A DNA stretch of 64,000 bases, from contig JAJCZX010000038.1 in the NCBI GenBank assembly GCA_029262195.1, positions 1-64,000 of the forward strand. Direction: 5' to 3'. The stretch's first letter is position 1; every line of letters starts with the position of its first letter. The stretch comes from Gemmatimonadota bacterium. Lineage in GTDB: Bacteria; Gemmatimonadota; Gemmatimonadetes; Gemmatimonadales; GWC2-71-9. Shown here piece by piece: positions 20,628 through 63,577 of this stretch. Under the pieces are notes generated by a model. The model ran no database searches. It was given only the letters and a program-made list of their open reading frames with translations, and was not told the origin of the DNA. A program made the translations under genes and the position numbers.

Positions 20628-20780
20628 ATGAGCACTAAGAAACAACACAGGAAGATTAAGGCAGAGAAGAAACATCGGTCCTCCCGGCGCACGGCGGCTA
20701 GTAAAAACGTGATCAGCTCTATCGTCGGACTGTTGGTCTTGGTAGGAGTGATCTGGGTCGTTTTCGATCTCCTGGCATGA
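20628..20780 (+). CDS. small basic single-TM protein (50 aa)
   Basis: Own translation: MSTKKQHRKIKAEKKHRSSRRTAASKNVISSIVGLLVLVGVIWVVFDLLA*; ATGA overlap with the next CDS; too short for the ORF track. Confidence 0.6.
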   Translation: MSTKKQHRKIKAEKKHRSSRRTAASKNVISSIVGLLVLVGVIWVVFDLLA

Positions 20781-21334
20781 CTTCGACAACTGAGCGGAAC
20801 CCCGACAAATTCGCGCTTCTCGTTGTAGACGTGCAAAATGCCGCGGTGGAATACAAACCCTATCGGGGCGAAACCGTACTCCAGAACATTGCTCGCCTGA
20901 TCGATGCATGCAGGAACAAGAACATCGAAGTGATTCATGTGCAGCACGATGACGGGCCCGGCACCTCATGTGAAAAGGGTACCGAGGGGTGGGAGATTCA
21001 CGAAAGTGTGGCTCCTGCGCCTGGCGAAAAAGTGGTGGGGAAGCAATTCAACAGCGCTTTCCGACAGACGGACCTGGAAGACCATCTTGAGCAGCGCGGT
21101 ATCCGGAAGCTGATCGTGGTTGGGATTCAAACCGAGTACTGTGTCGACACGACAATAAGAGTTGCGTTCGAAAAGGGCTTCGAAATTGTCGTTCCCGAAA
21201 TGACCAATACGACCTACGACAATGGCGTCGTCACTGCCGAGCAGATTTACGAGTTATACAATCACAGGATCTTTGCGGGACGCTTCGCCGAACTTGTCTC
21301 TGTCGAGGACACTCTGATTCGAATAGTGGGATAA
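20777..21334 (+). CDS. isochorismatase-family cysteine hydrolase
   Basis: 'ALLVVDVQNAAVEYKP', 'GKQFNSAFRQTDLEDHLEQRGIRKLIVVGIQTEYCVDTTIRVAFEKGFEIVV'. Confidence 0.92.
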   Translation: MTSTTERNPDKFALLVVDVQNAAVEYKPYRGETVLQNIARLIDACRNKNIEVIHVQHDDGPGTSCEKGTEGWEIHESVAPAPGEKVVGKQFNSAFRQTDLEDHLEQRGIRKLIVVGIQTEYCVDTTIRVAFEKGFEIVVPEMTNTTYDNGVVTAEQIYELYNHRIFAGRFAELVSVEDTLIRIVG

Positions 21335-21424
21335 CCGAGCGGGGTGGTGGTGTGGCCCGAGGGATCCCTGTAGTATCTTTATTCCAGCCTTGGCTCTGCT
21401 CATTCCCAACCTTCAGGAGGACCG

Positions 21425-21949
21425 ATGTCTGACCTTCCAGTCTTGAATCTCAGAAGATGGATCGAAGAAAACCGCGAGCTTCTGAGGCCTCCGGTTGGCA
21501 ATAAGATGGTCTGGAGCGATTCCGAATTCCTGGTGATGGTGGTCGGCGGTCCCAATCAGCGCAAAGATTACCACGTGGAAGAGGGAGACGAGTTCTTCTA
21601 TCAGATCGAAGGCGACATTGTTGTCAGGATCATGGTTGATGGCAAACCTCGGGACGTGGAGATCAAAGAAGGCGACATGTTCTTGCTGCCCGCTCGGATA
21701 CCACATTCGCCCCAACGTCCGGCTGATACGGTTGGTCTGGTCATCGAACGGCAGCGAAAAGAGGGTGAACTCGATTCTCTTCGCTGGTACTGCGACAACT
21801 GCCTTGAAATTATCCACGAAGCCTCCTTTCAACTGGAAGACCTCGGGAAACAGCTCAAACCGGTTATCGAAGAGTTCTACGCCTCCGAGGAACTCCGCAC
21901 GTGCAACAAATGCTCAGCGGTGATGGAAGTACCAGCGGCGGCCAAATAA
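21425..21949 (+). CDS. nbaC: 3-hydroxyanthranilate 3,4-dioxygenase
   Basis: '[30 protein letters not shown]', '[29 protein letters not shown]', C-terminal 'WYCDNC..CNKC'. Confidence 0.95.
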
Positions 21950-21951
21950 TT

Positions 21952-22989
21952 TTGACGGGGCGCGCGGAGAAACCTGGCCTCCGGGTGGACCTACACACCC
22001 ATGTCCTACCTCGGGTGTGGCCCGATTTGCAGCAACGCTACGGCTACGGCGGGTTTATCCGCCTGGACCACGTCGATTCATGCACCGCCAGAATGATGGA
22101 AGACGACCATTTCTTTCGCCTGGTGGAACACAACCTCTGGGATGCTGACCGACGAATCGAAGAATGCGATCAGGCTGGTGTCTCGGTACAGGCGCTCTCG
22201 ACCGTCCCGGTTATGTTTAGCTATTGGGCCAAACCAGAAGACGCTCTGGATCTTTCACGCCTGCTCAATGACGATATCTCATCAAAAGTTGTGGCCTACC
22301 CCAAACGCTTTCTCGGGCTCGGCACAATCCCCATGCAGGACGCGAAACTTGCTATCGGTGAGCTCGAAAGGTGCGTCAAAGAACTCGGCATGGCCGGAGT
22401 CGAGGTTGGAACCCACGTAAACGACTGGAACCTCGACGCGGTTGAGTTGGAAGACATTTTTGCTGCGGCAGAAGATCTTGGCGCCGCCATGTTCATCCAT
22501 CCCTGGGACATGATGGGAAGCGACCGGATGCCGAAGTACTGGCTCCCGTGGCTTGTGGGGATGCCAGCCGAAACAAGCATGGCAATGTGCTCGATGATCT
22601 TTGGCGGCGTGTTTGAACGACATCCGAATCTGAGGGTTTGTTTTGCTCACGGAGGAGGGTCATTCCCCGGAACCATCGGCCGAATAGAACACGGATTCAA
22701 AGTGCGACCTGATCTTTGCGCTGTCGACAACGCGGTTAATCCGCGTGACTATCTGGGACGCTTCTACGTGGACTCACTGGTTCTGGACCCGAACGTTCTC
22801 ACGTCTTTGATTGAGTTGATGGGAGAAGACTGTGTTGCTCTGGGTTCTGACTATCCTTTCCCCCTCGGCGAAATACCGGCTGGCAAAGCGATTGATGACG
22901 CGGGAGATCTAAGCCCTTCAGTCAAGAAGAAAATTTTCGAAACCAACCCCCTGGCATTTCTCGGGGTGAATCCTTCGCAATTCGAATAG
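21952..22989 (+). CDS. nbaD: 2-amino-3-carboxymuconate-6-semialdehyde decarboxylase (ACMSD, amidohydrolase 2)
   Basis: '[15 protein letters not shown]', '[32 protein letters not shown]', '[20 protein letters not shown]', '[11 protein letters not shown]'; likely TTG start at 21952. Confidence 0.92.
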
Positions 22990-23001
22990 CGTGCTGAATT
23001 G

Positions 23002-24273
23002 ATGGAATACGAAAACTCGGAAACGTTTGCACGCGACGCCGACAACCACGACGAATTGGCTGGCTTCCGCAAACGTTTTTCAATCCCGATCCACAAGGAC
23101 GAGGATGCCGTGTATCTCGTTGGCAATTCCCTGGGTCTGATGCCTGAAGTCGCGCGAAACGCAGTGCAAAATGAATTGGATTCATGGGCTCAGTTAGGCG
23201 TCGACGGGCACTTTAAAGACCAACACCCTTGGTACTCGTATCACGAAGAGCTGCGCGCAGCCGGAGCGTCGTTGGTCGGAGCCAAACCATCTGAAGTGGT
23301 TTTCATGAACGGACTGACAGTCAATCTCCATCTGATGATGGTCAGTTTTTTTCGGCCCGGCGGCAGGCGAAACAAGATCCTCATTGAGAGTGGCGCCTTT
23401 CCCTCAGATCTCTACTCGGTGCAATCCCAACTGCACTGGCACGGGCTGGATCGGGACAAGGATCTGATTCAGGTGCAACCCTCCCTGGCTTCCGAAGGTG
23501 TTACCAGCGAAGACATCGTTGCAGCCATTGAAGACCAGGGGGATGAGATAGCCCTGGTACTCGTAGGTGCCGTGAATTTTTTTACCGGCCGCCTTTACGA
23601 CATGGCCGAAATAACCCGTGCCGGCCAGGCTGCCGGTTGTCTGGTTGGGTTTGATCTGGCTCACTCTGCCGGTAACGTGCCCCATTCCCTCCACGATTGG
23701 GGTGTCGACTTTGCCGCCTGGTGCACGTACAAATACTTGAACTCGGGCCCTGGAGCTGTCGCCGGTTGTTTTGTACATGAACGTCATCATGCAGACGACC
23801 GGTTGCCGCAGTTCGGCGGCTGGTGGGGCAACGACCCTGACACTCGCTTCGACATGAACGCCGAACGCGACTTCGCCCCGGTCTCCAGCGCCGATCGCTG
23901 GCAGATGTCTAATCCGCCGATACTGGCCATGGCCCCCGTTCGGGAATCGCTCAATATTTTCGAAGAGGCAGGCATAGAAAACATTCGCAACAAATCAATT
24001 GAAATGACAGGGTATCTGTCTTTCCTGGTTGACGAATTGGGCAGTGAAAACGTCGAGGTGCTGACTCCGGATGATCCGAGGAAAAGAGGTAGCCAATTGT
24101 CTCTCCGCATCGGTCGAGACCCCGTGGGTTTATTTAAATCTCTCTCCGCGAAGGGTGTGGCGACCGACCTTAGGAAACCTGACGTGATTCGGGTTGCACC
24201 TGCGCCATTGTACAACAGTTTCCACGATGTTTGGCGTTTCGCCAGCATCCTGCGAGAAACCCTGGACGACTGA
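23002..24273 (+). CDS. kynU: kynureninase
   Basis: 'YLVGNSLGLMP', 'FDLAHSAGNVPHSLHDWGVDFAAWCTYKYLNSGPGAVAG' PLP-Lys context. Confidence 0.96.
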   Translation: MEYENSETFARDADNHDELAGFRKRFSIPIHKDEDAVYLVGNSLGLMPEVARNAVQNELDSWAQLGVDGHFKDQHPWYSYHEELRAAGASLVGAKPSEVVFMNGLTVNLHLMMVSFFRPGGRRNKILIESGAFPSDLYSVQSQLHWHGLDRDKDLIQVQPSLASEGVTSEDIVAAIEDQGDEIALVLVGAVNFFTGRLYDMAEITRAGQAAGCLVGFDLAHSAGNVPHSLHDWGVDFAAWCTYKYLNSGPGAVAGCFVHERHHADDRLPQFGGWWGNDPDTRFDMNAERDFAPVSSADRWQMSNPPILAMAPVRESLNIFEEAGIENIRNKSIEMTGYLSFLVDELGSENVEVLTPDDPRKRGSQLSLRIGRDPVGLFKSLSAKGVATDLRKPDVIRVAPAPLYNSFHDVWRFASILRETLDD

Positions 24274-25595
24274 TGGCCGAGAAAGAGACAGTGACGATCG
24301 TTGGAGCTGGCCTGGCAGGATCGTTGATGGCTGCTCTTCTGGGGGAGCGTGGGTACAAGGTAACCGTGATGGAGATGCGATCCGACCCGCGGAGCACCGA
24401 AGTTCCCCGTGGCAGGTCCATCAACCTTGCAATTTCCACCCGTGGCCTCACAGCGTTAGGACGAATTGGCCTGGACAAACAGATTCTACAAGCCGCCGTG
24501 CCGATGACAGGACGGATGATTCATTCGCCCCTGGGTCATACCAAATTCCAGAAATACGACCGGGCAGGGCAGGCCATCAACTCGGTGTCACGCGGCGATC
24601 TGAATATTGCCCTGATCGAAGCGGCAGACAAACATTCAAATGTCGCATTCGTTTTCGACCACAAGTTAAAAGAATGTGATCTCGAGCAGAGAACGTTGAG
24701 TTTTGAAATCGCCGGAACGGACCAGCGCCGCACTTTGCAGCCTGACATCATTATCGGCGCCGACGGCGGCTATTCGAGAGTCAGAAAACCAATGCTTCGG
24801 AATGATGGCTTCAGCTACAGTCAGGATTATCTCGAGCACGGGTATAAAGAGTTGCGAATCCCCGCGGGGTCCCAAGGAAGTTTTAAGCTGGCGAAGAACG
24901 CTTTGCATATATGGCCCCGGGGCGGCTACATGATGATCGCCCTCCCCAACTCCGATGGATCCTTTACCTGCACCCTTTTCTGGCCCATGACAGGCCCCAA
25001 CGGCCTCGATAGGCTCAAGACTCCAGCAGAGGTTGAGACCTTTTTCAAGGCCAATTTCCCGGATGCGGTGCCGCATATGCCAACTCTCGCAGACGACTTT
25101 TTACACAACGCCAACAGCAGTCTGGCGACGTTTCGTTGTTGGCCGTGGAACTATGGTCGGACGGTATTGATCGGGGACGCGGCACACGGAGTGGTACCGT
25201 TTTACGGACAGGGTGCGAACGCGTCGTTCGAAGATTGTGTGGAACTGATTGATTGTCTTGGAGCAAATGACGGGGATTGGAATGTAGCGATAGCCGAATA
25301 CGGGGTGAATCGAAAACGACACGCTGATGCCATCGCCGACCTGGCCATCGCCAACTTCATCGAAATGCGAGACAGTGTAGGTTCGGGACGATTTCTCTTG
25401 AAAAAGAAGATGGAAAAGTTTGTCGAATCCATGATACCGTTTTTCTACACACCTCTTTACACCATGATCAGTTTCTCAAACATCCCGTACGCTGATGCGG
25501 TCGAAAAATCCGAGCGGCAAGATCGGGTGCTGAATGTCATCGCCAAAACCGTACTGGCTGCGGCTGTCGGCATCCTGGTCTGGGCAATTCACTAG
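24273..25595 (+). CDS. kmo: kynurenine 3-monooxygenase
   Basis: 'TIVGAGLAGSLMAALLGERGYKVTVMEMRSDPR', 'GRSINLAISTRGLTALGRIGL', 'LIGDAAHGVVPFYGQGANASFEDC'; TGATG overlap with kynU. Confidence 0.96.
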   Translation: MAEKETVTIVGAGLAGSLMAALLGERGYKVTVMEMRSDPRSTEVPRGRSINLAISTRGLTALGRIGLDKQILQAAVPMTGRMIHSPLGHTKFQKYDRAGQAINSVSRGDLNIALIEAADKHSNVAFVFDHKLKECDLEQRTLSFEIAGTDQRRTLQPDIIIGADGGYSRVRKPMLRNDGFSYSQDYLEHGYKELRIPAGSQGSFKLAKNALHIWPRGGYMMIALPNSDGSFTCTLFWPMTGPNGLDRLKTPAEVETFFKANFPDAVPHMPTLADDFLHNANSSLATFRCWPWNYGRTVLIGDAAHGVVPFYGQGANASFEDCVELIDCLGANDGDWNVAIAEYGVNRKRHADAIADLAIANFIEMRDSVGSGRFLLKKKMEKFVESMIPFFYTPLYTMISFSNIPYADAVEKSERQDRVLNVIAKTVLAAAVGILVWAIH

Positions 25596-25604
25596 AGAAA
25601 AAAG

Positions 25605-26384
25605 ATGAGCATAACCTACCCTTCCTATTTGAAACTCGATCAACTCCTCAGCCTGCAGGAGCCTCTGAGCGACGGTGAGCACGACGAGATGCTCTTTATC
25701 GTTATCCATCAGGTTTACGAACTCTGGTTCAAATTGATGATGCACGAGTTTGACAAAATCATCGCAGACCTGCGCGGTGATGATCTGTATGGAGCCATCA
25801 CCACGTTCCAGCGGGCTCGTACGATTATGAAGACTCTGGTTGGGCAACTGGATGTGCTTGAAACGATGACTCCAATGTCGTTTCTGTCGTTTCGAGATCG
25901 ACTGGAGACATCATCGGGATTCCAGTCCGTTCAATTCCGCCAGTTTGAGTTTGCCCTGGGCTACAAACGCCCGGAGATGTTGGCCCACTACAATCACGAT
26001 CCAGCCGGGCAGGAATTCCTTAAAGAATGCCTGGACCGAGAATCGGTTGCAGATGCGTTCTATGAGTTTCTTCAGAACCGGGGGGTCACTTTGCCACCTG
26101 ACGTAGTCGACCGTGACCGCAGAGCCGCAATTTCCCCCTCGTCCAAGGTGCAGGACGGGATAGTGCACCTTTACCGCAACAACCCCGACGTAGCGATCCT
26201 GCTTGAGCTGATGACGGACTTTGATGAGGGGTTACAGGAATGGCGTTACCGCCACGTCAAGATGGTCGAACGTACTATTGGCAATAAGAGCGGCACCGGG
26301 GGATCACCGGGCGTCGATTTCCTGAAACGCTCGCTCTTTATTTCTGTCTTTCCTGACCTGTGGGCTGTCAGGCATCAGTTTTGA
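25605..26384 (+). CDS. kynA: tryptophan 2,3-dioxygenase
   Basis: 'YLKLDQLLSLQEPLSDGEHDEMLFIVIHQVYELWFKLMMHEFDKI', 'MSFLSFRDRLETSSGFQSVQFRQFEFALGYK'. Confidence 0.97.
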   Translation: MSITYPSYLKLDQLLSLQEPLSDGEHDEMLFIVIHQVYELWFKLMMHEFDKIIADLRGDDLYGAITTFQRARTIMKTLVGQLDVLETMTPMSFLSFRDRLETSSGFQSVQFRQFEFALGYKRPEMLAHYNHDPAGQEFLKECLDRESVADAFYEFLQNRGVTLPPDVVDRDRRAAISPSSKVQDGIVHLYRNNPDVAILLELMTDFDEGLQEWRYRHVKMVERTIGNKSGTGGSPGVDFLKRSLFISVFPDLWAVRHQF

Positions 26385-26391
26385 CGCGGCG

Positions 26392-27027
26392 ATGATTTAC
26401 GACATTAGTCCAACCGTCTCCCCGGCTCTGGCGGTCTGGCCCGGCGACACGAAGCCTACGCGGGAGGTTTTGCTCGATCTAGCGCGAGGTGACAACCTTA
26501 CCCTTTCCACCTTGAATGCCACGGTCCACCTGGGCTCTCACACAGACGCACCAAGTCACTATGAAAAGGACGGGGCGACGATTGAAGAGGTTGCCCTCGA
26601 TACCTACTTGGGACTGTGTCAGGTGATTGATTGTTCGGGGGAGGGGGGAGTTGGGAGGGGGGAACGAGTAGAGAGGTCCCATCTGCTGTCGCCACCGACA
26701 TCTGAGCGAGTGTTGCTAAGGACGGGTACCTATCCTGATCCAGAACAGTTCAATGAAGATTTTGCCGGTCTATCTCTGGAACTCGTGAACAAGCTGGCTG
26801 GATGTGGGGTGAAGTTGATCGGAGTGGACACGCCGAGCGTGGACCTGTTTAGCTCCAAAGACCTACCAGCGCATCAGGCGTGTGCCAACAACGGGATACT
26901 AATTCTGGAGGGTATCGTTCTAACCGATGTCCCTGACGGAGACTATGAATTGATCGCTTTGCCACTGAAACTAGAGGGCTTCGATGCGAGTCCGGTGAGG
27001 GCGATACTCAGGGACGTTGGAGGTTAG
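26392..27027 (+). CDS. kynB: kynurenine formamidase (cyclase-like)
   Basis: 'MIYDISPTVSPALAVWPGDT', 'HLGSHTDAPSHYEKDGATIEEVALDTYLG', 'GVKLIGVDTPSVDLFSSKDLPAH'. Confidence 0.95.
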   Translation: MIYDISPTVSPALAVWPGDTKPTREVLLDLARGDNLTLSTLNATVHLGSHTDAPSHYEKDGATIEEVALDTYLGLCQVIDCSGEGGVGRGERVERSHLLSPPTSERVLLRTGTYPDPEQFNEDFAGLSLELVNKLAGCGVKLIGVDTPSVDLFSSKDLPAHQACANNGILILEGIVLTDVPDGDYELIALPLKLEGFDASPVRAILRDVGG

Positions 27028-27058
27028 AAGAAAGAAGTCAGAAGATAGGGGCGTGACG

Positions 27059-27478
27059 TCAGGGGGTTGCAATGACTTTCAGTTCCACGGCAATCGGGGT
27101 TGGGAGGCAGTTAACCTCCAGGGTGGTGCGGGTCGGTTGATTGTCCTTGAAATATTCGGCGTAGAGTGCGTTGAAAGTGGGGAAATCGTCCCTCATGTTG
27201 GTCAGAAACACGGTTACATCGACTATGTTCGCCCAGCTTGAACCAGCGTCTTCAAGTACCGTTTTGATGTTTTCGAAAACGGCTCGACATTGAACCTCAA
27301 TGTCATAGGATACAATGTTGCCGTTTTCATCCAAATCCACGCCAGGGATTTTTTTAATCCCCTTTGTTCGCGGCCCCATTCCGGATAAAAATAAAAAATC
27401 ACCGACGCGTTTTGCGTGGGGAAACGCCCCCACAGGTTCCGGGGCTCGCAAACTGTTGATCGTGTCCTTCTGGGCCAT
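27059..27478 (-). CDS. RidA-family protein, probable 2-aminomuconate deaminase
   Basis: 'PEPVGAFPHAKRVGDFLFLSGMGPR', 'NIVDVTVFLTNMRDDFPTFNALYAEYF' RidA family; adjacent to AMSDH. Confidence 0.85.
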   Translation of the reverse strand: MAQKDTINSLRAPEPVGAFPHAKRVGDFLFLSGMGPRTKGIKKIPGVDLDENGNIVSYDIEVQCRAVFENIKTVLEDAGSSWANIVDVTVFLTNMRDDFPTFNALYAEYFKDNQPTRTTLEVNCLPTPIAVELKVIATP

Positions 27479-28941
27479 TAGTCTCCCGTGTACGTGCAGA
27501 CGTTTTTCGGTTCAGTGAAAAACCGCAAGGCTTCGTTGCCACCTTCTCGACCCACTCCGCTGTCTTTCATCCCCCCAAACGGCACCCTCAGATCTCGCAG
27601 CATCCAGCAATTTATCCACACCGTTCCCGCTTCGAGGGCTTCGGCGACTCGGTGGCTGCGTGCCAGATCGGATGTCCAAACAGAAGCGGAAAGTCCGTAA
27701 CGTGTCCCGTTCGCAATCGTGATCGCTTCTTCCTCTGTGTCGAACGGGATTATGGTCACCACAGGACCAAAAATTTCCTCCTGATTCACGCGGCAGTCAG
27801 GCCCCAGACCGGTAATCGCAGTCGGATTGAGAAAAAATCCTCCAGTGCAACGTTCGCTCAAACCCGACGGGGCATCTCCTCCGCACTCGATGTTGCCGCC
27901 CTCTGCGATAGCAAGATCGACGTATGATTTCACCTTGGCCAGATGTTGTTCTGAAACGAGTGCGCCGTGATCGGTATCATCGCAAAGGGGGTCACCGACC
28001 TTCAAGCCATTTGTCGCTGTAACGAAACGTTTAACGAATTCGTTGTGAATTGAACGCTCCACCACAATGCGGGACCCACACAGGCAAATCTGTCCCTGGT
28101 TAGAAAACGACGAACGCACAGTGGTTTCGACGACCGTATCAAGATCTGCGTCCGCGAAGATCAGGTTGGGGTTCTTTCCCCCCATCTCAAGCGCCAACTT
28201 TTTGAAGCTTCCCGCAGTGGCTTTTGCAATCGCGGCGCCCGTGGCGGTGCCGCCGGTAAACGAGATCGCCCTAACCTCTTCGTGTGCAACCAGGGGGGCG
28301 CCAGCCCCCGGTCCGGTCCCGTGGACGATATTCAGCACGCCCGGCGGTAACCCTGCGTCGTCGCAAACCTGTGCTAGAAGGAAGGCTGTCATCGGCGTTA
28401 TCTCAGACGGTTTGGCTACAGCTGTGTTCCCCGAGGCGATGGCGGGGGCGATTTTCCAGGTAAGAAGATACAGAGGTAAATTCCAGGGACTGATCAAACC
28501 GACCACACCCAGGGGGCGACGCAGAGTGTAATTGATGGCCTGATGGTCCGTTATGTGTGCTTCGGTGTTGGTATGGAGAATGGCCGTCGCAAAGAACCTG
28601 AGGTTGGCCACGGCGCGAGGGATATCGACGCTTTCCGCAAGAGAAATCGGTTTGCCAGTGTCGACACTTTCGGCCCGCGCGAATTTTTCCAGGCGATCTT
28701 CAACCAGTTGTGCCATCCGAAGCATCACGGTAGACCGCGTTTGGGCAGTGGACTTCTTCCAACCTTGAAACGCATCGGATGCTGTCGCGATGGCTGCGTC
28801 CACATCTTCGGCGCCGCTATCGGGAATTTCACCGTAAACTTTACCTGTGGCCGGTTCTACATTCTTCAGGTAGTTGCCCTGCGCAGGAGGTCGAAATTTC
28901 CCTCCTATGAAGTTGTCGATCCGAATAAGGCCTGTCGTCAT
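27478..28941 (-). CDS. 2-aminomuconate 6-semialdehyde dehydrogenase (ALDH)
   Basis: ALDH motifs 'LEMGGKNPNLIFADADLD', 'SNQGQICLCGSRIVVE'; kynurenine-cluster context. Confidence 0.88.
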   Translation of the reverse strand: MTTGLIRIDNFIGGKFRPPAQGNYLKNVEPATGKVYGEIPDSGAEDVDAAIATASDAFQGWKKSTAQTRSTVMLRMAQLVEDRLEKFARAESVDTGKPISLAESVDIPRAVANLRFFATAILHTNTEAHITDHQAINYTLRRPLGVVGLISPWNLPLYLLTWKIAPAIASGNTAVAKPSEITPMTAFLLAQVCDDAGLPPGVLNIVHGTGPGAGAPLVAHEEVRAISFTGGTATGAAIAKATAGSFKKLALEMGGKNPNLIFADADLDTVVETTVRSSFSNQGQICLCGSRIVVERSIHNEFVKRFVTATNGLKVGDPLCDDTDHGALVSEQHLAKVKSYVDLAIAEGGNIECGGDAPSGLSERCTGGFFLNPTAITGLGPDCRVNQEEIFGPVVTIIPFDTEEEAITIANGTRYGLSASVWTSDLARSHRVAEALEAGTVWINCWMLRDLRVPFGGMKDSGVGREGGNEALRFFTEPKNVCTYTGD

Positions 28942-29713
28942 AGAGCCGTAATCCTGCCCCCGTCGACCGGAATATTGGTGCCGCTGATGTACGCGGCGGC
29001 AGGTGATGCGAGAAACAGCACCGCTTCGGCTGTCTCCTCAGGGGTGGCAAACCGTCCGGCGGGAATCGTCGATTTCATTCCTTCGGCAACCTCGTCTTCA
29101 GATTTCCCCTGGGCAGTTGCTTTGCCCGCTATGATCGAAGCCAAACGGTCGGTTGAGGTGAATCCCGGTAAAACGTTGTTGACCGTGATACCGTCCGGAC
29201 CCAACTCCATCGACAACGTCTTTGACCAGCTGGCCACCGCGCCCCGGACCGTATTGGAAACTCCCAGCCCAGGAATCGGCTGTTTTACAGAAGTGGATAT
29301 GATGTTGATAATCCTACCGTGACCTGCCTCCCTCATTCCCGGAACCAAAGCCTGTGCGAGAACCTGGTTGCAAAGCACGTGTCGGGCAAAGGCCACTGAA
29401 ATTTCGTCGGGAGTAGCGTCGATGAGTGGGCCGCCTTTGGGTCCGCCGCTGTTGTTCACGAGGATATGATAGGCGCCTGTGGAGTCCACATGGTTCCGGA
29501 CCACATCGCCTAACTTCTGGGGGTCGTCAAAATCTGCTGCCAGGTAGTTGTGTCCGTCACCTTCGAGAGCAGAACAAACCTCCGAGAGCTTCGATGCGTC
29601 CCGTGCAACCAGTGTTACAGCAGCCCCATTTCGTGCAAGAAGCTCGGCGGACGAGCGCCCGATGCCGCGGGTGCTCCCGCAGACCATGGCACGTTTTCCA
29701 TTCAATACGCTCA
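28938..29713 (-). CDS. SDR-family protein with non-canonical active site
   Basis: 'MVCGSTRGIGRSSAELLARNGAAVTLVARD', 'LVNNSGGPKGGP'; the YxxxK position reads S-N-T-V-R. Confidence 0.85.
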
Positions 29714-29736
29714 TTAAAGGTGTGTTCTCCTTTGGC

Positions 29737-30906
29737 TTAATCCTGCGCTGAAGCCTGGCGCGCACACTCAGCCAGAACAGCGGCGCCTACAAAAATAGCT
29801 TCGTCTTCAGCGTAAAAAAGGGGGGAGTGGGCAGGGATTACGTCTCCGTCAGCAAAACGGGCCCCGACCCTCATGAAGCAGCCCGGAATCTGTTCCTGGT
29901 AGGCGGCAAAATCTTCACCGGCCATATTGACCAGGCCGAACGGCACCAATGCCTCTGATCCCAAAACAGTCGACACCGCAGCGCGGGCCACCGCAGTTGC
30001 GTCGGGAGGGTTAACTACTGGTGCGGGCCCCATTTTGATGTCTACTTCAACGGGAAGTGAAAACATTTGTGAAACACCTGCGGCGATGTTCCGGATTTCC
30101 TGGTGGATTTGTTTTCTGGTGGAAGCGAGGGTGGCTCGTATCGTTCCGCCAGTACTTGCCTGAGCAGGAATGACGTTTGGCGCTCGACCCGCGGAGAGTT
30201 GTCCGAGGGTAACCACGCCGGGTGAAGCTGGATCCAGCTTGCGAGAGACGATGCTTTGGGCAGCGACGATGAATTGCGCAATAGCCAGAACCGGGTCGGG
30301 TGCCTCGTGCGGTCGCGCACCGTGAGCCCCACCGCTCGTCGCGACCACCGAGAATGTATCGCTCGATGCAGCTAACGGTCCCTCATCCGCCACCACCTGG
30401 CCCAAAGGAAAGCGCCGGTCTACGTGAGCACCAAAGATCAGCGAGATACCTTCCAGCGCACCATCCTTGATTATTTTTTTCGCGCCCTGGCCGGTTTCCT
30501 CCCCGGGTTGCAAGATCACCACTACATCGGACTGCGCCGGAGAGGCCACCAGGAGATGTGCAGCACCCACCGCCCAGGTGGCATGAACGTCGTGGCCGCA
30601 GGCGTGCATAACGCCAGGGACCTGGGATTGGTAGGGTAACCCCGTGGCTTCGTGGATCGGTAGCGCATCGATATCTCCACGGATACCAATGGCCGGCAAC
30701 GATCTGTTTTGCCCCGGAATGCGAGCCACCAATCCAGTGTCTCCGACCCGTTTCACATCGTCAGAAATCTCTCGTAGCTCGGCTTCAAGACGATTGGCCG
30801 TCTCCACTTCCTCAAACGACAATTCCGGATTCTGATGGATGTGATGTCTTAGGTCCGTCAGTCGCTTCCGCAGCGCGGGCGGAACTAGTTGTTCAACGTT
30901 GCCCAT
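29737..30906 (-). CDS. M20-family amidohydrolase, candidate N-succinyl-L-amino acid desuccinylase
   Basis: 'AIGIRGDIDALPIHEATGLPYQSQVPGVMHACGHDVHATWAVGAAHLL', 'LQPGEETGQGAKKII', 'MAGEDFAAYQEQIPGCFMRVG'. Confidence 0.9.
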   Translation of the reverse strand: MGNVEQLVPPALRKRLTDLRHHIHQNPELSFEEVETANRLEAELREISDDVKRVGDTGLVARIPGQNRSLPAIGIRGDIDALPIHEATGLPYQSQVPGVMHACGHDVHATWAVGAAHLLVASPAQSDVVVILQPGEETGQGAKKIIKDGALEGISLIFGAHVDRRFPLGQVVADEGPLAASSDTFSVVATSGGAHGARPHEAPDPVLAIAQFIVAAQSIVSRKLDPASPGVVTLGQLSAGRAPNVIPAQASTGGTIRATLASTRKQIHQEIRNIAAGVSQMFSLPVEVDIKMGPAPVVNPPDATAVARAAVSTVLGSEALVPFGLVNMAGEDFAAYQEQIPGCFMRVGARFADGDVIPAHSPLFYAEDEAIFVGAAVLAECARQASAQD

Positions 30907-30909
30907 TGG

Positions 30910-32028
30910 CTACTGTCCTCCCTCCGCTTTACGCACTGTCAATTGGTCAACGCGGCCAACATCCACTTCAACTCCCAGGCCGGGAGAAGTGGGTACCACA
31001 ACATAACCCTTTGCGTTCATCGTCCACTCCGGTGACACAATATCCTGCTCCCAGTATCTGGAACTCGGACTGATGTCGCCCGGAAGGGTGAAGTTGGGCA
31101 ACGAAGCGAGGGCTACGTTGTACGCGCGGCCAACACCGCTCTCCAGCATCCCTCCGCACCACACGGGGATACCGACTGACGCTGCCAGGTCGTGAATAGC
31201 AATGGCCTCAGCGAATCCTCCGACGCGCCCGGGTTTGATGTTGATGACTCGGCCGCTGCCCAATTCAATCATCTCACGGGCCTTTTCAACGGATGTGATT
31301 GACTCGTCCAAACAGATCGGCGTGGTCAACAACTTCTGAAGATGGGAATGCCGGTAGACATCGTCCCACGCCAGCGGTTGTTCGATCATGATCAGTCCGA
31401 ATCGGTCGAACTGTTTCAAAACAGGGACGTCGTCCAGCGTGTAAGAGTTGTTTGCGTCGACCATAAGGTCGTGATCTCCTATTGCGTCGCGTGCTGCAGC
31501 AACGTATTCGAGATCTTTGCCGGGCTTCACTTTTACTTTGATTTTCTGATAACCGGCTTCCACCGCCTCGCTGGCTTTGCGACCAAGAGCCTCAGGAGAA
31601 TCCTGGATACCAATCGAAATCCCGGTGCCGACTTTGTCTCTACTCCCTCCTAGCACACCGGAAAGAGGGGTTCCGGCGCGTTGGGCGGTCAAGGCCCAAA
31701 CTCCCATCTCCACAGCTGCCTTAGCCATGTGGTTGCCACGAATCGCATGGTCCAGGGCAAGGGAAACTTCCGTTGGCGAATCGAACTCTCTTCCAATCAC
31801 CAGAGGCGAAATCCATTCCTTGATCGCCACCCAGGCTGTGTCGATAGCTTCAGGGGAGTAATTTGGCACGGCACCGGCAACGCACTCGCTCCATACGGAC
31901 ACTCCGTCCACGTCAGTTATTTCGAGAAGCAGGATTCTGCGGTCGGTCTCAACACCGGAAGAAATTTGGAACGGTTCTTTCAACGGGATTTGGATCTCGC
32001 GCAACCCGACGCTCTTGATGTTGATCAA
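30910..32028 (-). CDS. enolase-superfamily N-succinylamino acid racemase / OSBS subfamily protein
   Basis: 'KIKVKVKPGKD', 'DLMVDANNSYTLDDV', 'MIEQPLAWDDVYRHSHLQKLLTTPICLDESI', 'INIKPGRVGGFAEAIAIHDLAASVGIPVWCGGMLESGVGRAYNVALASLPNFTLPGDISPSSRYWEQDI'. Confidence 0.93.
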   Translation of the reverse strand: MINIKSVGLREIQIPLKEPFQISSGVETDRRILLLEITDVDGVSVWSECVAGAVPNYSPEAIDTAWVAIKEWISPLVIGREFDSPTEVSLALDHAIRGNHMAKAAVEMGVWALTAQRAGTPLSGVLGGSRDKVGTGISIGIQDSPEALGRKASEAVEAGYQKIKVKVKPGKDLEYVAAARDAIGDHDLMVDANNSYTLDDVPVLKQFDRFGLIMIEQPLAWDDVYRHSHLQKLLTTPICLDESITSVEKAREMIELGSGRVINIKPGRVGGFAEAIAIHDLAASVGIPVWCGGMLESGVGRAYNVALASLPNFTLPGDISPSSRYWEQDIVSPEWTMNAKGYVVVPTSPGLGVEVDVGRVDQLTVRKAEGGQ

Positions 32029-32909
32029 CTGTCGCTCCCCAATTCTAGCCTGTAGAAACAGCGACCCGAACCAGCGTCGCGTCCGAACTCCACGACATCA
32101 TAGCCTCGTCCTAAATAAATCTCGAACGCTTCCCTCGTATTAACACGCCATTCTTTGGCCCGCATGGCGGATTGATGTTTCACTATAAGAATGTCTTCCG
32201 GGATTTCGATTATGACATCGCCTTCGGCTGAGTTCTCGATATCGCCCGGCAGGGGAATTCCTTCCGCGAAAGTCGAATTGACTGTCTTTACATCACCGTT
32301 GATTTTCAGTCGCGCCTGAGACCTGGCATTTTCAAGGTCCCACCTGGCTATGAACCTGTCCGTTCCGATTCCCGAGTCGAGTTTGCCTCGGTATCCGTCA
32401 CCGTACATCGACTTTACGTACTGGTCGATCGACACTCCCAGATTATTGATATTGAAGTGGGCGTTGCGGGCCACCAACGGATCAAAGGTCCAATACATCA
32501 TGGGTATTCCCAACTCGAGAAGGCGTTTCCTCTGGTACTTTTTTAAGGCCCGGCCAAGTCCTGTGTCGCGTCGTTCCGGAACGACGGCGAGCATGTGTGA
32601 CCAGTGTCCCTGAGAGCCGTTGCGCACTCCTGAGATGCCGAAAACAAATCCTAAAAGATCCCCCGATTCGTCGAAGGCTCCTGCTACTATCCCACCGATC
32701 TTCTGGGTGATCTTTAAAATGCCAGTGGTGGCGAATTCGGGGAAATTTGCGCCCCAGGTAGCTTCCTGCAGTAGGGCGCACGCGTTGTACTCGTCGGAAG
32801 CACTGAGATCGCGTATTTCCACGCCGCTGGTTTCGGATTCCTGTTTCACACTAACAAGTTGACCAAAAGAGCCGGTGGACGGAACCGGAGGCGGTAATGT
32901 TACCTTCAA
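32025..32909 (-). CDS. GNAT-superfamily acyltransferase (COG3375-like), candidate D-amino acid N-succinyltransferase
   Basis: 'GSQGHWSHMLAVVPERRDTGLGRALKKYQRKRLLELGIPMMYWTFDPLVARNAHFNINNLG'; 4-nt overlap with the racemase gene. Confidence 0.85.
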   Translation of the reverse strand: MKVTLPPPVPSTGSFGQLVSVKQESETSGVEIRDLSASDEYNACALLQEATWGANFPEFATTGILKITQKIGGIVAGAFDESGDLLGFVFGISGVRNGSQGHWSHMLAVVPERRDTGLGRALKKYQRKRLLELGIPMMYWTFDPLVARNAHFNINNLGVSIDQYVKSMYGDGYRGKLDSGIGTDRFIARWDLENARSQARLKINGDVKTVNSTFAEGIPLPGDIENSAEGDVIIEIPEDILIVKHQSAMRAKEWRVNTREAFEIYLGRGYDVVEFGRDAGSGRCFYRLELGSDS

Positions 32910-32959
32910 AGGATACAGTACAACCCTATAACTTTAACCTTCTGACTTCTACGCTACCC

Positions 32960-33709
32960 ATGAAAAGATTCCTTGCTACGTTTGCCCTGGTGGCGGTATT
33001 GATTCCCGCAACCAGCTTCGCACAAAACACAACAGTCGTCGTCAGAGTTCTTGCTCACGATGCCAAGATCATCGGGAGCGGCGTTGGCGGCGCAAGAGTT
33101 ACGATCAAGAACGCCCGGACCGGGGAAGTCCTCGCAGAGGGCGAACACGGAGGGAGTACTGGAAACACTGACGCCATTATGGTTACGCCTCGGGTCAGGG
33201 GTACGGCTGTTTTTGACGGTGCTGGCCAATTCGTTGCCCATCTCAACCTGAATCGTCCCACAACTCTTGAGTTCATTGCCGAAGGGCCTCTGGGGTTTCC
33301 TGCCGCCACACAACGCGCCACGAAGACTATGGTGGTCATGCCCGGCGAAGATATGACGGGTGACGGCGTGGTGCTCGAATTGCACGGATTCATAGTTGAA
33401 GTTTCCTCTACCGGCGAGATTGTCGGAGGATCTCGTGCAGTAGCTATCACGGGCACGGTTCGAATGATGTGTGGTTGCCCCCACACTCCGGGCGGACTCT
33501 GGGACGCCAATCGCGTTTCAGTGTCGGCGAGGGTTATCGTTGGTGGAAGATTGTTGCGACAGGAGCCGATGGAATACGCTGGAACTCCCAATACTTTTAC
33601 GGCGGAGTTGGACCTTTCAGATGTGCCTGCGGGTTCGATGATCCACGTTGTCGCATCCGACCCCACTAGACAAAACGCCGGTTACAGCTCTGGCCTGGAG
33701 GTAAAATGA
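32960..33709 (+). CDS. hypothetical secreted protein
   Basis: Signal peptide 'MKRFLATFALVAVLIPATSFAQ'; contains 'MMCGCPHTPGGLWDANRVSV'. Confidence 0.75.
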   Translation: MKRFLATFALVAVLIPATSFAQNTTVVVRVLAHDAKIIGSGVGGARVTIKNARTGEVLAEGEHGGSTGNTDAIMVTPRVRGTAVFDGAGQFVAHLNLNRPTTLEFIAEGPLGFPAATQRATKTMVVMPGEDMTGDGVVLELHGFIVEVSSTGEIVGGSRAVAITGTVRMMCGCPHTPGGLWDANRVSVSARVIVGGRLLRQEPMEYAGTPNTFTAELDLSDVPAGSMIHVVASDPTRQNAGYSSGLEVK

Positions 33710-60547: not shown

Positions 60548-61693
60548 ATGGAGCGGATCACGCTCAGGGACTCAAAACTGGAGTCCGTTGCCGAAAAGGT
60601 GCTGAGCAACGAAAGGCTGAGCCTTGACGATGGCCTGGACCTTTTTAAGACCAATGACATTGTAGGGCTCGGGTCGCTGGCGGATTTTGCTAACCGGCGG
60701 ATCAACGGCGACCGCGTGTATTTTTCTTCTAACCAGCACCTTAATCCGACCAACGTCTGCATTCTGCGGAACGTCTGCGCATTTTGTTCTTTTGCGCGCA
60801 CGCCCAAAGAAGATGGCGCCTATACGCAGTCGCTAGAAGAGACTCTGGCTGAAGCCGAGACTGCGTCCGGCTCGCCGACACGGGAGTTTCACATCGTGGG
60901 GGGGTTGCACCCGAAACTCACCCTTTCCTACTACACCGACCTTATTACCGCTCTTAAAGAACACCACCCTGGGGTTCATGTAAAAGCTCTGACGGCGGTC
61001 GAAATAGCTCACCTGGCGAGGATCGAGAAGACATCTACAGTTGATGTTTTGACCCGTTTAAAGGCTGCCGGCCTGGACACGATGCCGGGCGGAGGCGCAG
61101 AGGTTTTCGGTACCGGTGTCCGCTCTACGATCGCGGAGAGGAAACTTGGCTCGGCCGAGTGGATTCGAGTCCACAAGGAAGCTCACGCTCTCGACATCAA
61201 CACCAATTGCACGATGCTGTACGGGCACGTTGAAACCCTTGAAGACCGCATGGAGCACCTGAACATGTTGCGGGAGCTTCAGGACGAATCGGGTGGGTTG
61301 TTGGCTTACATCCCGCTGGCCTTCCATCCAGACAACAACGACCTGGGCAGGGAACTGGGTCTGGAAGGGACCACGACCTCGGGGTTTGACGACCTCAAGA
61401 ACATCGCTGTCGGAAGGCTGTTCCTGGACAACGTTCCCCACGTTAAAACACACTGGCCCATGGTTACCCCGTTTCTTTCTCAGGTGGCGTTGCACTTTGG
61501 GTGCGACGACCTTGAGGGCACCGTCGTTTACGAAAGGGTCTATCACGACGCGGGAGCCCACACTCCGCTCGGCATGTCGTATGAAGGACTCATCGAATTT
61601 ATTCAGGCTGCCGGCAAAACACCGGTCGAACGTGACTCGCGCTACAACACAGTGAACGAGTTCGATTCAGACCTGACACCGGCCACGGTTTGA
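60548..61693 (+). CDS. mqnE: aminofutalosine synthase (radical SAM)
   Basis: 'NQHLNPTNVCILRNVCAFCSFARTPKEDGAYT', 'VGGLHPKLTLSYYTDLI', 'MPGGGAEVF'. Confidence 0.93.
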   Translation: MERITLRDSKLESVAEKVLSNERLSLDDGLDLFKTNDIVGLGSLADFANRRINGDRVYFSSNQHLNPTNVCILRNVCAFCSFARTPKEDGAYTQSLEETLAEAETASGSPTREFHIVGGLHPKLTLSYYTDLITALKEHHPGVHVKALTAVEIAHLARIEKTSTVDVLTRLKAAGLDTMPGGGAEVFGTGVRSTIAERKLGSAEWIRVHKEAHALDINTNCTMLYGHVETLEDRMEHLNMLRELQDESGGLLAYIPLAFHPDNNDLGRELGLEGTTTSGFDDLKNIAVGRLFLDNVPHVKTHWPMVTPFLSQVALHFGCDDLEGTVVYERVYHDAGAHTPLGMSYEGLIEFIQAAGKTPVERDSRYNTVNEFDSDLTPATV

Positions 61694-61695
61694 CC

Positions 61696-62517
61696 GTGAG
61701 AGTCGGTCGCATAGGGTACATAAATTGTTTCCCGGTTTACGGCGCCATCGACAGAGGGATTGTTGAGATCCCCGGCTCGCTCGTCACTGGCACTCCCTCA
61801 GAACTAAACGGGCTTCTTGCAGCGGGGGAATTGGGATTGTCAGTGATCTCCGCAGTTGAATATGCGCGAGACTCCTCTCGATACACCTTGCTACCCGACC
61901 TCGCGATTTCCAGCGATGGGCCCGTTCAATCGGTAAAACTCTTTTCCCGTGTACCAGCAAACAAACTTGAAGGCGGCACGATCCTGGTTTCGCAGTCATC
62001 GCGTACATCGGTCTTGCTCCTCGATCTGTTGCTGAAGGAAAAATGGAACGTCAGAGCCCATAGGGCTGAGGTCCGGGCCGAGGTAGAAGACCTGGAATCT
62101 CTGGCACGATTACCCCACGACGCTGTCCTTGTGATCGGCGATGCGGCGCTACACCTCGACGTGACTCACTCTTACAACCACTCGTACGATCTCAGTGCGG
62201 AGTGGAAGGATTGGACGGGTCTCCCGTTTGTATTCGCCGTGTGGGCTGCTCGTCGAGATGCAGATTCTACGGCGATTGGCACAATTCACCGTGGCCTGCT
62301 GGAATCTCGCGATTGGGGTTTGGATAACCTGGATACCCTTGCCGATGACGCGTCAAAAGCAACCGGGTTCGAACTAGAGATGTGTCACGACTACCTTTCC
62401 GGCCTTGATTATGCGTTGTCTCCTACGCACATAGAAGGTTTATCTACTTTCTTCACCAAACTTGAAGCAAACGGAGTCATTCCGTCTGGCACCCTGCAAT
62501 TCTTATCCGTGGCTTGA
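61696..62517 (+). CDS. mqnA: chorismate dehydratase
   Basis: 'RVGRIGYINCFPVYGAIDRG', 'GTPSELNGLLAAGELGLSVISAVEYARDSSRYTLLPDLAISSDGPVQSVKLFSRVP'. Confidence 0.95.
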   Translation: MRVGRIGYINCFPVYGAIDRGIVEIPGSLVTGTPSELNGLLAAGELGLSVISAVEYARDSSRYTLLPDLAISSDGPVQSVKLFSRVPANKLEGGTILVSQSSRTSVLLLDLLLKEKWNVRAHRAEVRAEVEDLESLARLPHDAVLVIGDAALHLDVTHSYNHSYDLSAEWKDWTGLPFVFAVWAARRDADSTAIGTIHRGLLESRDWGLDNLDTLADDASKATGFELEMCHDYLSGLDYALSPTHIEGLSTFFTKLEANGVIPSGTLQFLSVA

Positions 62518-62521
62518 ACAA

Positions 62522-63577
62522 ATGATCGACAGAAACAGCGCCGAATTCAAAGACTACCTCGACCTATATGAGAACGCGTCGCTGCTGGAGTTGGGCTCCA
62601 TGGCCGACGCCAAACGCATCGAACTCCATCCAGAAGACGTCGTTACCTACATCGTCGACAGAAATATCAACTACACCAACGTCTGCGTTGCGGATTGTAA
62701 ATTCTGTGCATTCTATCGCCGCCCCAAGGACAACGAAGGGTACGTCCTCTCTTTCGAAGAAATTGGAGCCAAGATCGAAGAAACGAAGGCCCTGGGTGGC
62801 GTGCAGATTTTGATCCAGGGTGGACACAACCCTTACATCCCCTTCGATTGGTACCTGGATCTCTTGAGATATATCAAGGAAAAACACCCCATCCACGTAC
62901 ACGGATTTTCTCCCTCCGAGGTGGATTTCTTTTCAACCCGCTTCCGCATTGCTACAGAAGATGTGATCAAGGCTCTGATGGACGCCGGTCTTGATTCCAT
63001 TCCTGGCGGGGGCGGGGAGATTCTAGTACAGGACGTGCGTGACCGCGTTGCCAAGAAGAAAGCCGGCGCTGACCGCTGGCTTGAGGTGATGGAGATTGCT
63101 CATAACCTCGGCATGAAGACATCGGTTACGATGATGTACGGGCTGGGGGAGTCCAATGCGGACCGGATAGAGCATTTGATGCGAGTCAGGGAGGTCCAGG
63201 CGCGGACCAACGGCTTCACCGCTTTTATCATGTGGCCGCTGCAGCCCGAGAATACCGAAATGGAAGGCATTGAACGTACCGACTCGGTTACCTACCTGAG
63301 GACAGTTGCCATTTCCAGATTAATCCTCGACAACGTTCCCAATATTCAGGCGTCATGGGTTACGATGGGACTGAAGATTGGACAGGTGTCACTCGGGTTT
63401 GGATGTAACGATTTTGGGTCTTTGATGATCGAAGAGAACGTTGTCTCGGCAGCAGGAACCACCCACGCCACAACAATCGAAGAGATCGAACGAACAATCC
63501 AGAACGCGGGCCTTACGCCGGCCCGCCGACATCAGGATTACTCCATGGTGGAGGCCGAAGCGGTAAAGGCCGGGTAA
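62522..63577 (+). CDS. mqnC: cyclic dehypoxanthinyl futalosine synthase (radical SAM)
   Basis: 'VTYIVDRNINYTNVCVADCKFCAFYRRPKDNEGYVLSFEEI', 'LIQGGHNPYIPFDWYLDLLRYIKEKHPIHVHGFSPSEV', 'IPGGGGEIL'. Confidence 0.95.
   Translation: MIDRNSAEFKDYLDLYENASLLELGSMADAKRIELHPEDVVTYIVDRNINYTNVCVADCKFCAFYRRPKDNEGYVLSFEEIGAKIEETKALGGVQILIQGGHNPYIPFDWYLDLLRYIKEKHPIHVHGFSPSEVDFFSTRFRIATEDVIKALMDAGLDSIPGGGGEILVQDVRDRVAKKKAGADRWLEVMEIAHNLGMKTSVTMMYGLGESNADRIEHLMRVREVQARTNGFTAFIMWPLQPENTEMEGIERTDSVTYLRTVAISRLILDNVPNIQASWVTMGLKIGQVSLGFGCNDFGSLMIEENVVSAAGTTHATTIEEIERTIQNAGLTPARRHQDYSMVEAEAVKAG

Follow-up and report, generated by a model that had tools for sequence, protein, structure and literature searches.

A predicted D-to-L amino acid conversion trio joined to a kynurenine degradation operon in one genus of Gemmatimonadota

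In Geobacillus kaustophilus, a trio built around an N-succinylamino acid racemase (NSAR) reportedly converts D- to L-amino acids irreversibly (Sakai et al. 2006, Biochemistry 45:4455, as cited in PMC8762209). Here we describe a locus where genes of the same kind, encoding a GNAT acyltransferase, an NSAR-subfamily enolase and an M20 amidohydrolase (hereafter, the trio), adjoin genes of kynurenine degradation. It lies in a 64,000-nucleotide stretch, the window, of contig JAJCZX010000038.1 from the draft genome of a Gemmatimonadota bacterium (G000; 4.2 Mb, 42 contigs). Six genes on the + strand (HAAO-ACMSD-KynU-KMO-TDO-KynB, 21425-27027) converge on six genes on the - strand (GNAT-NSAR-M20-SDR-AMSDH-RidA), which run from approximately 32.85 kb down to 27059 (Table 1). 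The join between the trio and the kynurenine genes is genuine and shared by two species; dedication of the trio to D-tryptophan, proposed in a first-pass annotation of this DNA, is unlikely. We favour, with moderate confidence, the explanation that a general D-to-L salvage trio of the phylum has been joined to the lower kynurenine operon in one genus, and suggest that this places a known D-to-L module, joined to an aromatic amino acid degradation operon, in a testable physiological setting.

Composition and packing of the locus

Families were assigned by profile searches (Pfam, and NCBIfam with its curated cut-offs) and by sequence searches of the PDB. The profile, PDB and structure-model matches bear out the genes named in the first-pass annotation, both in position and in family.

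The genes on the - strand are tightly packed: GNAT and NSAR overlap by 4 bp (TTGA), NSAR and M20 are separated by 3 bp, SDR and AMSDH overlap by 4 bp, and AMSDH and RidA by 1 bp. If the SDR start is taken as the ATG at 29714 instead of the listed GTG, the gap between M20 and SDR is approximately 22 bp, with a ribosome-site-like AAGGAG inside. As this leaves little room for a terminator or a promoter, the six genes likely form one transcript, judging by the sequence. Thus, the trio is indeed packed with SDR, AMSDH and RidA in one apparent operon, and the further claim that it shares a unit with the kynurenine enzymes holds for these three same-strand genes, but not for TDO, KMO and KynU, which are on the converging strand. 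In the gap between KynB and RidA, no hairpin terminator scored better than in shuffled sequences.

A search of the genome yielded the window's racemase as the only NSAR. Among solved structures, it scores highest against the NSARs of Thermus, Deinococcus and Amycolatopsis (approximately 304-322 bits), whereas dipeptide epimerases and cycloisomerases in the PDB score at most 113 bits, in agreement with its initial placement in the NSAR subfamily and not among the dipeptide epimerases. The catalytic set is intact (K164, K166, D191, E216, D241, K265, R268) and invariant across a clade of 71 sequences; the roles checked were the acid/base pair of the KxK motif and the second lysine, the three acidic metal ligands, and the arginine following the second lysine. 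Racemase activity is predicted, as are the specificity of the GNAT protein for D-amino acids and succinyl-CoA and that of the M20 protein for N-succinyl-L-amino acids.

The GNAT sequence had no match in Pfam-A or NCBIfam (E-value threshold 0.001) and none in the PDB, but the structure model, built from an alignment of 33 sequences, matches GNAT acyltransferases, and an R-x-x-G-x-G motif can be read in the sequence. The listed start (TTG, 32909) is probably too far upstream. The C-terminal part (approximately residues 180-274) reaches past the GNAT domain. Despite having no Pfam-A or NCBIfam match, this family is widespread next to NSAR genes. Other loci (L134:4540-6297, L124:3965-5619, L120:12389-14140) pair a second GNAT from this family with a hydrolase of the metallo-beta-lactamase fold.

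On the kynurenine side, TDO, KynB, KMO, KynU, HAAO, ACMSD, AMSDH and the deaminase are all together at the locus, the deaminase being assigned by family and position only. TDO (269 bits versus 391) and KynB (210 bits versus 223) are strong matches that fall under the curated NCBIfam cut-offs. The N-terminus of the listed ACMSD reading frame overlaps HAAO, and the true start is probably at approximately 21979. Genes for 4-oxalocrotonate decarboxylase, hydratase and aldolase were not found in the window's kynurenine cluster. Within the family, most of the complete kynurenine clusters (L113, L127, L129, L130, L132, L133) have an SDR homologue (49-60% identity) next to AMSDH, so the SDR has a recurrent place in a kynurenine operon devoid of the usual next enzymes; it is a candidate lower-pathway reductase, turning 2-aminomuconate (or its keto product) into 2-oxoadipate.

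Just upstream of HAAO, at 20777-21334, is a gene not named in the initial annotation, encoding an isochorismatase-fold cysteine hydrolase (biuret/ureidoacrylate hydrolase-like); it had no homologue in the related loci tested.

Table 1. Features of the joined locus, with coordinates in the window and the basis of each assignment.
Feature	Coordinates	Strand	Basis
HAAO (3-hydroxyanthranilate 3,4-dioxygenase)	21425..21949	+	NF009763, 261 bits versus cut-off 220
ACMSD (2-amino-3-carboxymuconate semialdehyde decarboxylase)	21901..22989	+	PDB 2wm1, E=3.6e-144, match from residue 27
KynU (kynureninase)	22999..24273	+	TIGR01814, 445 bits versus cut-off 246
KMO (kynurenine 3-monooxygenase)	24231..25595	+	PDB 6lkd, E=5.9e-98
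TDO (tryptophan 2,3-dioxygenase)	25605..26384	+	TIGR03036, 5e-80; PDB 2nw7, 3.1e-59
KynB (kynurenine formamidase)	26392..27027	+	TIGR03035, 4.9e-62
RidA-family protein, probable 2-aminomuconate deaminase	27059..27478	-	PF01042; adjoins AMSDH in kynurenine clusters of the family
AMSDH (2-aminomuconate 6-semialdehyde dehydrogenase)	27478..28941	-	PDB 4i1w, E=1.8e-137
SDR oxidoreductase	28938..29714	-	PF13561; neighbour of AMSDH in G001 and five other clusters
M20 amidohydrolase, probable N-acyl(succinyl)-L-amino-acid hydrolase	29737..30906	-	TIGR01891, 327 bits versus cut-off 154; PDB YxeP, 7.2e-69
NSAR, N-succinylamino acid racemase (NSAR/OSBS subfamily, enolase superfamily)	30910..32028	-	TIGR01928, 341 bits versus 201; PDB 2zc8, 5.1e-95
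GNAT acyltransferase, probable D-amino-acid N-succinyltransferase	32025..32849	-	AlphaFold pLDDT 91; Foldseek GNAT matches, E ~3e-8
Intergenic region between divergent genes, probably with the promoter of the six-gene operon	32850..32960	.	Sequence reading, inference

Conservation of the join and spread of its parts

The genus was represented by two genomes, G000 and G001. In G001 (locus L113) we observed the same 12-gene block in identical order (HAAO-ACMSD-KynU-KMO-TDO-KynB / RidA-AMSDH-SDR-M20-NSAR-GNAT; 46-80% amino acid identity), including the short gap between M20 and SDR. Its flanks are unlike those of the window: biotin-ligase-like and CoaX-like genes (judged from translations) border it at one end and a D-Ala-D-Ala dipeptidase gene at the other, so that the block ends at HAAO and GNAT and both flanks have changed. 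Because the same block is found with different flanks, the join is not an assembly artefact and looks maintained; a chimera at the M20-SDR junction was rejected, as the second genome has the same junction. In the trees the GNATs of G000 and G001 are sisters (support 82), and the M20 proteins pair at 64. Separate origins of the two NSARs, which the free tree left unpaired, were also rejected, the tree that pairs them being compatible with the data (p-AU 0.69) and having the higher likelihood. The simplest reading is that the join was inherited once and persisted as the flanks on both sides changed.

We then counted the two parts in a phylum sample (n = 395 genomes; racemase at E<=1e-90, KMO at E<=1e-70). 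The racemase was found in 227 of the 395 genomes and KMO in 12, and both were present in G000, G001 and G086, in the latter on different contigs. At the phylum level NSAR is found in KMO genomes less often than expected (3/12 versus 224/383 of the others; Fisher p=0.03), and at the family level as often as expected (3/11 versus 23/91; Fisher p=1.0). There is, hence, no enrichment of co-occurrence at the genome level. Of the other NSAR loci, the 80 best had no kynurenine genes in their flanks (0/80), and in five kynurenine clusters of the same family (L127, L129, L130, L132, L133) SDR-AMSDH-RidA adjoin the kynurenine genes and the trio is absent.

Among 347 genomes of Acidobacteriota, KMO was found in 39, of which 17 had an NSAR relative and none a linked trio. 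A candidate independent linkage in one of the phylum's genomes (G778), where NSAR and KMO are 12 kb apart, was rejected, as this NSAR is not accompanied by GNAT and M20 and the genes between are unrelated. In Caldithrix, which has an NSAR close to the window's, KMO is on a different contig. Thus, the neighbourhood is conserved in a second species, but it is not general: in the loci surveyed, the linkage was confined to one genus, in G000 and G001. We found no paper in the open-access literature joining NSAR with the kynurenine pathway.

Genomic setting and likely role of the trio

In three genomes (G024, G036, G007) the trio is beside MALVRC and, contig permitting, dcd and the nuo operon, with a TMP gene between in two of them and no kynurenine genes; this context matches the right flank of the window. 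In G086 a kynurenine cluster occupies the nuo-side site together with a lone GNAT of the same tree group, NSAR and M20 being on another contig. Since the trio occurs at this site without kynurenine genes, and a kynurenine cluster has a GNAT there, the trio was probably at the nuo-side site before the kynurenine cluster. The pair of a GNAT and a metallo-beta-lactamase-fold hydrolase adjoins the kynurenine cluster of G086, in the place where the window has the trio.

In 12 loci (approximately nine distinct genomes), including the kynurenine-linked trio of G001, a D-Ala-D-Ala dipeptidase (M15) gene is found no more than 3.5 kb from the trio; no locus has it at 3.5-10.5 kb. Of the 61 family genomes, 33 have this gene, mostly as a single copy; in the family sample, it is within approximately 5 kb of the trio racemase in four of the nine genomes having both. 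Under random placement the estimated probability of such linkage is ~1e-8, a figure that overstates the case, as some of the genomes are close relatives. The dipeptidases linked to the trio (L113:16768-17952, L136:16501-18912, L135, L137, L016, L121, L035, L044, L074) are of the VanX/DdpX type, and some are fusions with a class-C-like hydrolase. Other neighbours of the trio encode class-C-like hydrolases of the D-aminopeptidase type, an N-acyl-D-amino-acid-deacylase-like amidohydrolase, amino acid permeases and GntR regulators.

These neighbours point to a role of the trio in salvage of D-amino acids from the cell wall and peptides, D-alanine in particular. The GNAT protein would N-succinylate a D-amino acid, with succinyl-CoA as the presumed donor; NSAR would racemise the N-succinyl amino acid; and M20 would remove succinate from the L-form, pulling the conversion from D to L. 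SDR, AMSDH and RidA would constitute the lower end of kynurenine degradation. With D-amino acids from cell walls and peptides, D-alanine for one, as its probable supply, the trio would in this genus be co-transcribed with tryptophan degradation as part of amino acid catabolism. Kynureninase also yields L-alanine, and hence both halves of the locus would feed L-amino acid catabolism, a loose metabolic tie whichever the substrate. More broadly, the survey suggests that a module whose racemase is present in more than half of the sampled phylum genomes serves D-amino acid salvage, for example that of cell-wall D-alanine.

Several observations weigh against this explanation. In the window, the trio has no dipeptidase gene next to it, and the M15 match of G000 lies on a different contig. 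Most trio loci show no linkage to the dipeptidase, and among the genomes that do, several are closely related. The close spacing of M20 and SDR in two species would agree as well with a tie that is more specific to tryptophan.

Alternative explanations and comparison with known systems

If the enolase were a menaquinone OSB synthase, a dipeptide epimerase or another member of the enolase superfamily, the D-to-L reading would be wrong altogether. The NCBIfam profile TIGR01928 does name the family OSB synthase, and in this subfamily sequence alone cannot separate OSBS from NSAR. However, MqnE and MqnC score above their cut-offs in the window (60548-63577) and, with the probable MqnA encoded between them, represent the futalosine route of menaquinone synthesis, while MenD over the cut-off was found in none of 26 genomes (G000 and 25 relatives). 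A dedicated OSB synthase role is thus unlikely, as had been anticipated from the futalosine genes. Given also the GNAT and M20 genes adjacent across phyla and PDB scores far better to NSARs than to epimerases, we rejected the OSB synthase, dipeptide epimerase and cycloisomerase readings, and regard this whole group of explanations as very improbable.

Two further explanations concern the join itself. The trio of this genus could be specialised to make L-tryptophan or L-kynurenine for the adjacent pathway, which we consider doubtful. The retention of the operon packing and of the M20-SDR junction by two divergent species, the block boundaries at HAAO and GNAT despite the changed flanks, and the single NSAR in the genome are all consistent with such a route; moreover, NSARs are broad in activity (PMC7431475), and N-succinyl-phenylalanine is among the substrates of GkNSAR (PMC8142540). 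On the other hand, kynurenine clusters of the same family do without the trio, KMO genomes are not enriched in NSAR, and KMO-bearing Acidobacteriota have no linked trio. Few NSAR residues (12 positions) are common to G000 and G001 yet rare in the clade, and the one in the 20s loop, E27, is also present in NSARs with no known linkage and hence uninformative; a specialised pocket was therefore rejected, the residues suggesting no clear specialisation. As the trio is common where kynurenine genes are absent, and kynurenine clusters occur without it, the case for D-tryptophan as the intended substrate, made at the outset, is weaker than the observation of the join itself, and the recurrent accessory neighbours of the trio point instead to D-alanine and other D-amino acids. 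D-tryptophan may be one of the substrates, but dedication to it is unlikely, and so is recruitment of the trio in this genus as a dedicated entry of D-tryptophan or D-kynurenine to the kynurenine pathway, needing neither a D-amino-acid oxidase nor a pyridoxal-phosphate racemase. The kynurenine cluster could, conversely, have landed by accident beside an ancestral trio locus near the nuo operon, making the junction metabolically meaningless. The nuo-side trios of G024, G036 and G007 and the cluster of G086 at the same site would agree with this; G001, in which the 12-gene block is intact between different flanks and M20 and SDR are still a short gap apart, would not, and we hold such an accident to be slightly less probable still.

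Turning to the described systems, a general salvage trio joined to kynurenine genes resembles the G. kaustophilus trio in having GNAT, an NSAR-subfamily enolase and M20 side by side, with the same racemase catalytic residues, but differs in that the window's trio heads an operon continuing into kynurenine genes. This likeness is by description, the Bacillota sequences compared being those of other trios; the same three families are adjacent in Oceanobacillus and Desulforamulus. The 3-hydroxyanthranilate meta-cleavage pathway is matched by HAAO, ACMSD, AMSDH and 2-aminomuconate deaminase together with TDO, KynB, KMO and KynU, in convergent operons, whereas genes for the decarboxylase, hydratase and aldolase are absent from the cluster, an SDR recurring in their stead, and only in this genus is the trio attached. 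Finally, the stand-alone GNAT-NSAR(-M20) modules of Gemmatimonadota, Acidobacteriota and others are homologous (NSAR, approximately 50-65% identity; GNAT, approximately 30-47%; M20, approximately 40-58%) and mostly alike in gene order; unlike the window's trio, they have no kynurenine genes and often are beside genes of D-Ala-D-Ala dipeptidase, D-aminopeptidase-like or N-acyl-D-amino-acid deacylase-like proteins.

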